From the NCBI GenBank assembly GCA_009926865.1, contig RFOD01000008.1, forward strand, positions 1-64,000: 64,000 nucleotides of DNA. The letters are read 5' to 3'. The stretch comes from Gammaproteobacteria bacterium (GTDB lineage Bacteria > Pseudomonadota > Gammaproteobacteria > Steroidobacterales > Steroidobacteraceae). Made by a program: the position numbers and the translations under genes. Of the stretch, positions 50,279-54,310 are shown piece after piece. The notes beneath the pieces were generated by a model. The model did no database searches. It was not told the origin of the DNA and saw only the letters and a program-made list of their open reading frames with translations. Within the stretch, counting starts at the first letter, position 1. Each line of letters starts with the position of its first letter.

Positions 50279-51193
50279 TTAAAGACCTGCAACCTGTAAA
50301 TTACGCAGCGCTAAGGCGCTGACTATCATGCCAAGAACGTAGAGCGGCACACCGAGCGCGTTGTACCAGACATCAAGCTCTGCAGGCCGCTGCACCAAAC
50401 GCCTCATCATCAATAACTGTCCGATAAGTAAAGCCAAAATAATTAGCGCATAGATATTTTGCTGCCAGAACACGAGACACCCGATCACGCCAATTTGGGC
50501 GAGCACCATCACGATACAAGCGACCCACACCGCACGCGTCACCCCTAAACGGACCGGCAAAGAACCCACGCCCATACGCTGATCACCGGCGACTGACTTG
50601 AAATCATTGAGCGTCATGATGCCGTGAGCACCAAAACTGTATAGCAAGGCAATGGCCACTTGACGGGAGTCGGGTAGCACGCCGGTCATCACGACCACAG
50701 CAGTCAACCATGGCACCCCTTCATAACAAAGTGCGACAGCAGAATTACCCCACCAACCATTTTTTTTGAGTCGGAACGGTGGCGCGCTATACATCCACGC
50801 TAAGGCCATACCCAGCAAGGAGGCTGCGAATACCCAAGGCCCCAGTAAATAGGCAACCACCAATGAAATAAAAGTCCAGCCAATGGAAATGTACAAACCC
50901 CACAGACCCGGCAGACGCCCGGAGGGAATCGGTCGACGGGGCTCATTGATCGCATCGACATGACGGTCAAACCAGTCGTTGACTGCCTGACTGGTGCCAC
51001 AAATGAGCGGACCTGCTAATACCAAACCCACGGCAATGATATGCCAGCGGCCGTCTGGCGCCGCGCCTGCTGCCACAACACCACAAAGAAATGCCCACAT
51101 TGGAGGGAACCACGTGACAGGCTTTAGCAATTCAAGCATCGCCGGCCACGCGGGACGACGGCCTGCGGTCAGGTTACCCACGCCTTCGGTCAT
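50279..51193 (-). CDS. bchG: Bacteriochlorophyll synthase BchG
   Basis: UbiA-family prenyltransferase that esterifies bacteriochlorophyllide a with the C20 alcohol. LLKPVTWFPPMWAFLCGVVA and the first Asp motif NDWFDRHVDAINEP, plus LNDFKSVAGDQRMG, define it; about eight or nine membrane helices. 304 residues. The ATG lies only six bases after a -10-like TATGTT, so the transcript from that promoter would be nearly leaderless. First gene of a run bchG-bchP-orf-cbiL-cbiM-cbiQ-cbiO. Confidence 0.96.
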   Translation of the reverse strand: MTEGVGNLTAGRRPAWPAMLELLKPVTWFPPMWAFLCGVVAAGAAPDGRWHIIAVGLVLAGPLICGTSQAVNDWFDRHVDAINEPRRPIPSGRLPGLWGLYISIGWTFISLVVAYLLGPWVFAASLLGMALAWMYSAPPFRLKKNGWWGNSAVALCYEGVPWLTAVVVMTGVLPDSRQVAIALLYSFGAHGIMTLNDFKSVAGDQRMGVGSLPVRLGVTRAVWVACIVMVLAQIGVIGCLVFWQQNIYALIILALLIGQLLMMRRLVQRPAELDVWYNALGVPLYVLGMIVSALALRNLQVAGL

Positions 51194-51199
51194 ATGGGC

Positions 51200-51240
51200 A
51201 ACATAACCATGACACCCCTTGGTGTCAATTAAGGTTTACA
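51200..51240 (-). promoter_or_regulatory. bchG promoter with PpsR/CrtJ-type operator
   Basis: The sequence TGTCAATTAAGGTTTACA (plus strand, 51223-51240) is an exact TGT-N12-ACA box, the known PpsR/CrtJ consensus. Read on the minus strand, its last six bases are TTGACA (-35), followed by a 17-bp spacer and TATGTT (-10). PpsR bound here would cover the -35. The same geometry recurs at bchF and aerR. Confidence 0.8.
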
Positions 51241-51264
51241 ACTCACCTCGGTGCAAAGAAGCGG

Positions 51265-52704
51265 TTAGTCCGTCTCCAGCTCACCCAAGCCATAGCGACG
51301 CAGCTTCACATACAAACTTTGCCGAGAAAGTCCCAGCATTTCCGCGGCGGAGGCACGATTATCCTGAGTCAACTCGAGTGCAGCCTCGATGCAAAGACGT
51401 TCAATGACATCAGTCGTTTCGCGTACTAACTCTTTTAAAGTGACTCGCCCGACCAACTCGGTCAATTGCTCGACCGAGCGAGGCAAGCTACGGCCGACCC
51501 GCGCCTCACCGACTCGACGTCGCTCGACGTTACGGATCGAAAACCCGAGATGAGGACTCGGACCCTCTCCAAGTTGCGTCGCCGAAATTTCCACTTCAGT
51601 CGACGCACCGAGCTCGCCGCGAACGGTAGTTGAAAAGGCCCGAATCACGCCGTGCTGTTTAAGATTTGACAGCATCACGCCGAGATCGACACCCGGACGG
51701 CCCAACCATCGATCCAGCGACTCTCCCCGTGCAAGCTCTTCGCTGGCCAGCTCCGTTAATTCAAGAAAACTTTGATTGACCAAAGTCACTTTGCCGGACT
51801 GATCGAGGACCACTAACGCATCCGGTAACTGAGCAAAAAACTCATTAACCTGCCTATCCAAACCGGCAGGCGCTTGCTGCGCAGAGGCTTTTATTGCCTC
51901 AACCAGCTGCAATCTAATCAAAACGTGTGAGAGGGACTCTTGACGGAAAAGAGCCCCGTGCAAGCGATACTCGCGACGCGCGGCCGAGGCATTACCGTTC
52001 GATGAACGCACGCGTAACTCACGCGCTCTCCCCGTGGTTTGCAACGCCAGGAGCCACTCTGCAACCGGCCGAGCACTCGCCGAATCGACCCATTCTTGCA
52101 GTGGCTTGCCGAGTAATTTTCTCGCCTCGACACCGAAAAAATCGGCTGCGGCCGCGTTAGCTTCCGTAATACGTTGCGCCGCCAGATCGACCACTAAAAA
52201 AGGTTCAGTCGTTGACTGTAACAACAAACGGTAGCGCGTTTCAGCCGCACGTAAACGCGAGTAGTCGCGTTCCAATGACTGTTCGACCGCCACGAGTTGT
52301 TGCTGCATGTCGGCGAGGGACCGCAGGTCACGCCCCAGAGCCAACAAACGCCCCTCATCGTCCAATCGCTGAATGTGGTATTGCACCGGCAGCGTTTGAC
52401 CGCCAGGGAGCGGATGGTTGATTTGACGACCCAGCGCCCGGCTATCGACCGCTGCGTCGCGGGCCCCCTCGAGCAAGCGTTCAATCTTGCCTCGACTGTC
52501 GCTCGTAACGACATCGACCAACGCGCGACCCAACCATTGATCGCCCACGCTGGTAGCCAGTTCATCGCTGTGGATGGAAAGGTCACGGATCACCCCACGA
52601 CGATCCAACACTAATGCCAGATCCGTCGCTGCCGTCACCAGACCCGATACGGTCTCCGCTGAGAGTCCGGTTAGGGCCTTCCTTGGCGCCTTGAATTTTC
52701 TCAC
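51265..52704 (-). CDS. ppsR: Photosynthesis gene repressor PpsR/CrtJ
   Basis: Redox- and light-responsive repressor of bch, crt and puc genes. 479 residues: N-terminal domain with LVLDRRGVIRDLS, PAS domains around 155-270 (EPFLVVDLAAQRITEANAAAADFFG) and 275-400 (LPDALVVLDQSGKVTLVNQSFLEL), and a Fis-type HTH at the end (NRASAAEMLGLSRQSLYVKL). The only cysteine is in the HTH region (ERLCIEAAL, about residue 438), matching CrtJ Cys420; the partner cysteine of the disulfide model is missing. Follows aerR by 37 bp on the same strand. TGT-N12-ACA-like boxes occur at three promoters in this cluster, including its own. Confidence 0.95.
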   Translation of the reverse strand: MRKFKAPRKALTGLSAETVSGLVTAATDLALVLDRRGVIRDLSIHSDELATSVGDQWLGRALVDVVTSDSRGKIERLLEGARDAAVDSRALGRQINHPLPGGQTLPVQYHIQRLDDEGRLLALGRDLRSLADMQQQLVAVEQSLERDYSRLRAAETRYRLLLQSTTEPFLVVDLAAQRITEANAAAADFFGVEARKLLGKPLQEWVDSASARPVAEWLLALQTTGRARELRVRSSNGNASAARREYRLHGALFRQESLSHVLIRLQLVEAIKASAQQAPAGLDRQVNEFFAQLPDALVVLDQSGKVTLVNQSFLELTELASEELARGESLDRWLGRPGVDLGVMLSNLKQHGVIRAFSTTVRGELGASTEVEISATQLGEGPSPHLGFSIRNVERRRVGEARVGRSLPRSVEQLTELVGRVTLKELVRETTDVIERLCIEAALELTQDNRASAAEMLGLSRQSLYVKLRRYGLGELETD

Positions 52705-52741
52705 TTTTTGTCCGTGTCAGTTCCGTTGACTAAAGGCCCCA

Positions 52742-53548
52742 TCACAAGAGCTGGATTAGTTGTTCCGCTTGCCTCACTGCATCTCGCCCGTCCGTCGCCG
52801 CCACATCTGCACCGACCAATGCAATCCAATCGCCGCGCACCTGAAAAGGTCGCCCGCCCACCATAATTCGCACTTCACGGTTCAGGGATTGACGACGAAT
52901 TCTCCGTATGAGGCCCGACAGGGCGTCGAATTGTTCAGAACTGCTGATGGATAGGCCGACCACCGCAAACCATTCGTGTTGTACGAGCGAAATTATATCC
53001 GTTTCGGTCGCACCCGGCAGGTCCCAGACATCCCAGCGGGCCTGGCGCAGCATATCGACTACTAATTGAGTGCCAAACACATGCTGCTCACCCGGCAACG
53101 CCGCGATCAGCGTACGACGCCCAGCCAGCGGCAGTTCCATGCCGTCGCTTGCCTCGGCCGAGAGACTGCGCGCGAGCTTTTGTAACCGACGCAAGCCCAC
53201 CGTCACCTCGACAAAATCCGCGCATTCGTTCTCCCAAGCGGCGCCGAACCACCTAGCAGCTTGCGCTAAGAGATCGAGATAAAGCGTGTCACGATCGACG
53301 CCTAAGGCTTGCAATTCCTGCGTGAAAGCCAGTGCTTCAGCATCATGGCCGAGACGCAACATGCCACAAAGCTGCTCTACCTGAGCCGAGGAAATCTGAG
53401 GCGTGGACCCATCGGCGTCGCGGTCTGGGAAAAGCCCCTGACGCCGGTGCGCAAGCACCAATCGCGGGATCACTTCGCTCTCAATGGTTCTGAGCAGCGC
53501 AGAGGGCTTGCTGGCCGATACGGCCGGTCGGATTTTTCGGTCCGTCAT
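52742..53548 (-). CDS. aerR: AerR/PpaA-type cobalamin-binding antirepressor
   Basis: Family members bind B12 and modulate PpsR/CrtJ in response to light. About 268 residues from the ATG of MTDRKIRPAV, preceded by a GAGGG ribosome site; the ORF's TTG start is less likely. The helical region with LCGMLRLGHDAEALAFTQELQALG is followed by a B12-binding Rossmann domain with the ligand-type histidine in GEQHVFGTQLVVDMLR, then GLSISSSEQFDALSGLIR and VGGRPFQ. Presence of EQHxFG suggests B12 binding is kept. It forms an operon with ppsR. A cobalt/nickel transporter lies a few genes downstream. Confidence 0.92.
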   Translation of the reverse strand: MTDRKIRPAVSASKPSALLRTIESEVIPRLVLAHRRQGLFPDRDADGSTPQISSAQVEQLCGMLRLGHDAEALAFTQELQALGVDRDTLYLDLLAQAARWFGAAWENECADFVEVTVGLRRLQKLARSLSAEASDGMELPLAGRRTLIAALPGEQHVFGTQLVVDMLRQARWDVWDLPGATETDIISLVQHEWFAVVGLSISSSEQFDALSGLIRRIRRQSLNREVRIMVGGRPFQVRGDWIALVGADVAATDGRDAVRQAEQLIQLL

Positions 53549-53673
53549 GTCGTCACCCTCGCCTGACCCAGTCCCTGACTGAGTCTCCAATGGCCACCAA
53601 CGCGCGACGACTTCCGTGTACCTAAAAAGGGCCCGTGTCCTATTCAGCTAGCCCCGTTCGTCGCACCTTCGCA

Positions 53674-53714
53674 CATATAGGCCCCCCTACGTCAAATGTC
53701 AATTTGGACTGACG
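53674..53714 (-). promoter_or_regulatory. aerR-ppsR promoter with PpsR-type box
   Basis: The plus-strand box TGTCAATTTGGACTGACG (53697-53714) matches TGT-N12-ACA except for the last base. On the minus strand it ends in TTGACA (-35), followed by 17 bp and TATATG (-10), giving a leader of roughly 120 nt to aerR. The architecture is the same as at bchG and bchF, suggesting autoregulation of aerR-ppsR. Confidence 0.68.
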
Positions 53715-53753
53715 TAAACTTTAATTGACAGTTTGGCGCCGCTTCTCTAGATT
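53713..53753 (+). promoter_or_regulatory. bchF promoter with PpsR-type box
   Basis: CGTAAACTTTAATTGACA (53713-53730) is 16/18 identical to the bchG box in promoter orientation. Its last six bases TTGACA are the -35; a 17-bp spacer and TAGATT (-10) follow. The box overlaps the divergent aerR box by 2 bp, so one operator block can serve both directions. Confidence 0.75.
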
Positions 53754-53782
53754 CGGTGTTGTCCGGTAGTGTGAGTACAGTT

Positions 53783-54310
53783 ATGCCTCAACCTCATCGG
53801 ACGGCGATCCGCCGTCCCCTCTATACCCCCGAAGAGCGCCTCCGGCGTGATCGTTCGGTATGGACGGTTGTGCAAGGCATCCTCGCTCCCCTGCAGCTCA
53901 TCGCATTTCTCATCAGTGTCTGGTTAGTCGTCGGATTTCTTCGCACCGGTGAAGGCGCGGAAATGGCGACTCTCAGCATTGTCATAAAGACGGGCTTTCT
54001 CTACGCCATCATGGTGACGGGCGCGATCTGGGAAAAAGAGATCTTTGGCGTATGGCTATTCGCTCCCAGCTTTTTTTGGGAAGACGTAGTCAGTATGGGC
54101 GTAATCGCCTTACACACGGCCTATCTCTACGCGTTACTGACCCAAAGCCTTAGCATCGAACAGCAAATGTGGTTAGCCCTGAGCGCCTATGCGCTCTACC
54201 TGATCAATGCGGGCCAATTCTTTTACAAACTTCATTTAGCTCGGCGCTCGCGCTGCGCAACTGGCGCATCTGAAGAGGCCCGAGACACTGCGTGGTCGCC
54301 TGGCACGTGA
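53783..54310 (+). CDS. bchF: 3-vinyl (bacterio)chlorophyllide hydratase BchF
   Basis: Adds water to the C3 vinyl group on the way to bacteriochlorophyll a. 175 residues from the ATG of MPQPHRTAI, with YTPEERLRRDRSVWTVVQGILAP, FLISVWLVVGFLRTGEG, WEKEIFGVWLFAPSFFWED and LINAGQFFYKL, all characteristic of BchF. Three to four membrane segments. Earlier GTG starts in the ORF lie too close to the predicted transcription start. It is followed directly by lhaA with a GTGA overlap; the usual bchNBHLM genes do not intervene. Confidence 0.93.
   Translation: MPQPHRTAIRRPLYTPEERLRRDRSVWTVVQGILAPLQLIAFLISVWLVVGFLRTGEGAEMATLSIVIKTGFLYAIMVTGAIWEKEIFGVWLFAPSFFWEDVVSMGVIALHTAYLYALLTQSLSIEQQMWLALSAYALYLINAGQFFYKLHLARRSRCATGASEEARDTAWSPGT

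Follow-up and report, generated by a model that had tools for sequence, protein, structure and literature searches.

Several promoters at which PpsR (CrtJ) boxes overlap promoter elements have been described. ChIP-seq in Rhodobacter sphaeroides placed PpsR at bchG, bchF and ppaA (which corresponds to aerR), with ATTGACA at the end of each site (PMC4344238), and other regulators, PrrA and MppG, act at bchF in this organism (PMC4263372). At R. capsulatus bchC, the upper CrtJ palindrome lies at -47 to -30, over the -35 element (PMC5362033). PpsR motifs lie over the -35 and -10 elements of Dinoroseobacter shibae bchF, which was studied with a reporter whose half-sites were mutated outside the promoter (PMC10890935). 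In Rubrivivax gelatinosus, a PpsR footprint covers the -35 and -10 elements of pucB, and crtI accepts CGT-N12-ACA (PMC4452267). A paper on Congregibacter reviews the PpsR consensus and the occurrence of tandem sites on promoters of the sigma70 type (PMC2654016). PpsR itself forms dimers, tetramers and octamers (PMC3949515).

We analyzed a 64-kb stretch of DNA (the window) from a genome of 2.32 Mb that is 97% complete. Among named loci, its BchF is most closely related to those of Steroidobacteraceae and of gammaproteobacterial MAGs (L061-L065). The window carries a photosynthesis gene cluster in the order bchP, bchG, ppsR, an aerR-like gene for a B12-binding protein, then bchF, a PUCC-family gene, puhA, puhB, puhE and dxs. 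The features concerned are as follows.

50279..51193, reverse strand: bchG, (bacterio)chlorophyll synthase (TIGR01476, 343 bits); leaderless start predicted
51197..51214, reverse strand: predicted lower, degenerate PpsR box of bchG, TGTCATGGTTATGTTGCC, lying over the -10 at a distance of 8 bp from the upper box
51200..51205, reverse strand: putative bchG -10, TATGTT, 17 bp from the -35 and ending 6 nt ahead of the ATG at 51193
51223..51240, reverse strand: predicted upper PpsR box of bchG, TGTAAACCTTAATTGACA; TTGACA at 51223-51228 is the putative -35
51265..52704, reverse strand: ppsR (CrtJ/PpsR), presumed binder of the boxes (TIGR02040, 482 bits against a cut-off of 275; HTH_8 and PAS)
52742..53590, reverse strand: aerR/ppaA-like gene for a B12-binding antirepressor (PF02310; synteny in relatives)
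53674..53679, reverse strand: putative aerR -10, TATATG, 17 bp from the -35
53697..53714, reverse strand: predicted aerR-side PpsR box, CGTCAGTCCAAATTGACA; TTGACA at 53697-53702 is the putative -35
53697..53730, no strand assigned: predicted fused double PpsR operator, TGTCAATTTGGACTGACGTAAACTTTAATTGACA, TGT-N12-ACGT-N12-ACA; its outer ends are the putative -35s of divergent aerR and bchF promoters
53713..53730, forward strand: predicted bchF-side PpsR box, CGTAAACTTTAATTGACA; TTGACA at 53725-53730 is the putative -35
53748..53753, forward strand: putative bchF -10, TAGATT, 17 bp from the -35
53783..54310, forward strand: bchF, 2-vinyl bacteriochlorophyllide hydratase (TIGR02020); coordinates from the likely true ATG

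The bchF reading frame is open from a GTG at 53756, which would fall upstream of +1. Homology to BchF sets in at residue 10, the ATG at 53783, and this ATG is therefore the likely true start. The aerR-like open frame starts with TTG and has an in-frame ATG at 53548.

YGT-N9-TTGACA boxes occurred three times in the window, exactly at bchG, aerR-ppsR and bchF, and nowhere else in it. The sequence-only reading had described three boxes with TTGACA ends, 17-bp spacers and -10 hexamers, and an exact TGT-N12-ACA palindrome at bchG; all of these were present in the sequence. The 17-bp spacing at all three promoters lies within the 16-18 bp of sigma70-type promoters. The aerR and bchF boxes are CGT-N12-ACA, and PpsR/CrtJ operators with one outer mismatch from TGT-N12-ACA, such as cGT, are known. 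The palindrome TGT-N12-ACA by itself was rejected as evidence: it was found 12 times in the window against 9.8 expected from shuffles, and its frequency in the genome was also at chance level. YGT-N9-TTGACA was seen three times against 0.83 expected, YGT-N7-AATTGACA three times against 0.05, and YGT-N9-TTGACA-N17-TANNNT twice against 0.006, the aerR -10 (TATATG) falling outside TANNNT.

The overlap of a PpsR box with the -35 is not new, because it has been published for promoters of R. capsulatus, D. shibae, Rvi. gelatinosus and R. sphaeroides; the window is a new instance of this known arrangement. The sequence-only reading had presented the fusion of box and -35 as its own observation. The fusion is supported by comparison (ppsR in the cluster, a recognition helix shared with a known PpsR, and conserved TTGACA ends, as described below), but the claim to novelty is lost. 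The three R. sphaeroides promoters are the same as in the window, and their sites TGTAAGGATAGATTGACA, TGTCAAAGAAAATTGACA and TGTAAGTCAGAATTGACA also end in ATTGACA; however, the ppaA and bchF boxes both start with TGT there and hence are not of the fused ACGT form (PMC4344238). R. capsulatus bchC has the same register to the -35 and a lower palindrome over the -10, as at bchG of the window, but its two 18-bp boxes are separate, 8 bp apart and on one promoter, in contrast to the overlapping boxes between aerR and bchF (PMC5362033). In D. shibae, bchF and ppaA are divergent as in the window, with one PpsR motif on the -35 and one on the -10, whereas four separate motifs were predicted and a fused 34-bp operator was not reported (PMC10890935). 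The PpsR of the window shares its recognition helix, residue for residue, with Rubrivivax PpsR (the comparison was with Rvi. benzoatilyticus, L125), although the pucB and crtI boxes of Rvi. gelatinosus are tandem, 8 or 9 bp apart (PMC4452267). Congregibacter litoralis KT71 is a gammaproteobacterium like the source of the window; the main text of its description gives 15 predicted PpsR sites, of which 12 are tandem sites with gaps of 7-8 nt, and describes no overlapping sites (PMC2654016). As a separate observation, the PpsR of the window contains only one cysteine, Cys438, beside the HTH, and the intramolecular disulfide proposed for Rhodobacter is therefore impossible here.

The aerR and bchF boxes were not the separate examples that the sequence-only reading had counted. 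Instead of the tandem spacing of 7-9 bp, which was not seen at aerR/bchF, they overlap by 2 bp (53713-53714) and are halves of one 34-bp element. With a 16-bp offset, perfect sequence in one 18-bp box rules it out in the other, which explains why the inner ends read CGT rather than TGT; the ACGT center is thus a compromise that leaves each box one outer mismatch from TGT-N12-ACA. We compared bchF upstream regions from 30 loci of the family and 80 named loci (101 distinct), using a matrix that covered each spacing between 6 and 18 on both sides. The exact 12/12 spacing, TGT-N12-ACGT-N12-ACA, was found in 56 of the 101 distinct regions, and any other spacing in at most five; as bchF loci have common ancestry, they do not count as independent trials, but they come from three proteobacterial classes. 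The fused loci span the alpha-, beta- and gammaproteobacteria. They include the isolates Rvi. benzoatilyticus (L125), Rhodoblastus acidophilus (L113), Variovorax sp. J22R133 (L117), Erythrobacter sp. YT30 (L126) and Ectothiorhodospira lacustris (L111). MAG records keep the species labels given by their depositors, among them some evident errors (such as Klebsiella pneumoniae for L070). All sampled loci labeled Rhodobacteraceae or one of its genera lacked the fused form and, with one exception (L083), had separate boxes starting with TGT. Over the 101 regions, YGT stood 9 bp from TTGACA in 91, and at any other distance in at most 10. Overlapping or fused PpsR sites were not found described in the open-access literature (text without supplements), and the 34-bp operator seems to be an undescribed form.

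Variants of the element were few. In six further loci the left end was CGT. Four had an ATGT center, by which the bchF box is made complete and the aerR-side box is broken; an ACAT center was not seen in the 101 distinct regions. The four ATGT loci (L042, L055, L056 and L058) form a sub-clade of the window's genus in which strength is shifted to the bchF box. In Chromatiaceae loci (L066, L068, L072, L077 and L097), the region upstream of bchF has CGTAAACCTGACTTGACA on the opposite strand and lacks a bchF-side box of the fused-operator type.

The promoter elements at the two operator ends differed in conservation. The bchF end was TTGACA in 56 of the 56 fused operators, though the search had required ACA only, while the corresponding TTGACG was present in only 15 of the 112 inner half-sites, which have no promoter role. 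TANNNT followed the bchF-end TTGACA at 17 bp in 32 loci and at 18 bp in 18 (50 of 56), with zero or one locus at other distances. TTGACA inside the box and a -10 at 17-18 bp were thus a conserved overlap of PpsR boxes with sigma70-type promoter elements. Of the 56 aerR ends, 43 read TTGACA; in the window's genus a -10 beginning with TA was seen at 17-18 bp, and such a -10 was looked for in other genera and not found. Because of the conservation of TTGACA and the -10 at each end, the predicted two-way promoter may be regarded as firm for bchF and as genus-level for aerR.

The fused pattern was also linked to PpsR. A scan of 217 genomes of the window's family for TGTCAA-N9-ACGT-N9-TTGACA found it in 33, with one copy per genome, and the reversed pattern, used as a control, in none of the 217. 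PpsR was above the curated cut-off in 31 of these 33 genomes and cut at contig ends in the other two (G189 and G201). None of about 177 PpsR-less family genomes carried the pattern, and seven PpsR-positive genomes lacked its exact form, four of them having the ATGT center. In the window's own genome, the cognate PpsR scores above the TIGR02040 cut-off and is encoded in the same cluster as the boxes. Geometry, spacing, conservation and co-occurrence with ppsR are all directly observed in these sequences and comparisons.

We give a probability of about 0.85 to the reading that these elements are PpsR operators on sigma70-type promoters, with the promoter-side half-site doubling as the -35 hexamer, fused over 34 bp between aerR and bchF and arranged in tandem, with a probably leaderless mRNA, at bchG. 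PpsR on its operator would cover the -35, and at bchG also the -10, and so shut out RNA polymerase; AerR would relieve this repression. One PpsR assembly on the fused operator would silence the bchF-puh and aerR-ppsR operons together, the latter as autoregulation. We infer from sequence and comparison the binding of PpsR, repression, the start sites and a possible simultaneous filling of the overlapping boxes.

That the three sites are plain sigma70 promoters, with TTGACA serving as a -35 only and the upstream YGT there by chance, would fit the chance-level frequency of TGT-N12-ACA in the window and the fact that TTGACA is the best -35. We nevertheless consider it highly improbable, given that YGT keeps its 9-bp distance from TTGACA in 91 of 101 bchF regions and that the fused form requires three more triplets in exact register and occurs, within the family, only in PpsR-positive genomes. 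Another regulator could instead occupy the central ACGT, leaving the bchF-side box alone for PpsR; ACGT is itself palindromic and strictly kept, and PrrA and MppG act at R. sphaeroides bchF (PMC4263372). A separate site, however, would not need TGT and ACA at exactly N12 on either side. Where the overlap is missing, moreover, the bchF box begins nearly always with TGT, and the ATGT sub-clade has completed this box at the expense of the other, so that such a regulator is quite improbable.

PpsR may fill the two boxes together or in turn. The inner triplets ACG and CGT have two bases in common, so that a pair of recognition helices would come together in the same segment of groove; this overlap could keep PpsR from occupying both boxes simultaneously. 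PpsR would then sit on one box or the other, and the element would be a switch between bchF and aerR-ppsR instead of a joint silencer, a use for which the existence of PpsR dimers and tetramers also counts (PMC3949515). Against this stands the balance kept between the boxes, with ACGT in the 56 exact loci and in the six with CGT at the left end, ATGT in four and ACAT in none; this fits joint use, and exclusive use is still compatible with it. We regard the switch as a genuine possibility, with the odds somewhat against it.

Through the fused operator, a single DNA site would link the repression of bacteriochlorophyll synthesis with the regulation of the repressor and of its B12-binding antirepressor. 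Chances are about even that the 34-bp TGT-N12-ACGT-N12-ACA, two PpsR boxes with a common ACGT and with ends that are -35s, is the ancestral bchF operator of purple bacteria, coupling bchF-puh with aerR-ppsR, and that it was missed since the Rhodobacter models have separate boxes. If so, PpsR would be arranged on DNA with box centers 16 bp apart, as against 26 bp in the known tandem. The element is widespread outside the sampled Rhodobacteraceae and strictly spaced, and it makes the question of how PpsR oligomers are seated on DNA directly testable where the purified protein is available, as for Rvi. gelatinosus.

At bchG, a TGTCA half-site 8 bp below the upper box opens the degenerate lower box, and this gap equals the spacing of known tandem PpsR operators. 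With the upper box on the -35 and the lower one on the -10, the promoter would carry the usual 8-bp tandem. We compared 31 loci in which the composite was in frame with bchG: YGT stood at the 8-bp distance below the upper box in 28, and the distance from the end of the -10 to the ATG was 6 nt in 28, 7 nt in two and 5 nt in one. Transcription from sigma70-type promoters usually starts about 7 nt after the -10. A -10 ending 6 nt ahead of the ATG would therefore place +1 at the A of the ATG, predicting a leaderless bchG mRNA. Since bchG lies closely behind ppsR on the same strand, read-through from ppsR is conceivable, and the mRNA might otherwise have a leader from a start further upstream, or be translated from a later codon. 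We think such departures from a leaderless mRNA rather unlikely, as the 6-nt distance is kept in 28 of the 31 composites and the ATG is followed by MAR in many relatives, distant ones included (L138). No description of a leaderless bchG was found in the open-access literature (text without supplements); if true, it adds translation-level control at the last step of bacteriochlorophyll synthesis.

The sequence-only reading had also suggested that the 18-mer, a 17-bp spacer and a -10 would define the regulon. This did not hold in a search of the source genome: the spacer at bchC is 16 bp, and no clear -10 follows within 16-18 bp at the boxes of bchH/bchI and pucC. Besides the three boxes and the PGC sites, the pattern also matched about ten unrelated places. 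The bchC promoter (L007, G000:C42, 1501-1544) consists of TGTCTAAAAAGATTGACA, 8 bp, and then CGTAAGCGTAGACTGACA over a TAGACT -10 at 16 bp, a tandem layout like that known from R. capsulatus bchC. The divergent pair of bchH-like and bchI-like genes has a fully symmetric box, TGTCAATTCAAGTTGACA, in its intergenic region (L006, G000:C37, 1501-1518), and neither side of the box shows a clear -10. At a PUCC-like gene adjoining rplC/rplD (L005, G000:C29, 1501-1544), TGTCAACCTTGTTTGACA is followed after 8 bp by TGT-N12-ACG.
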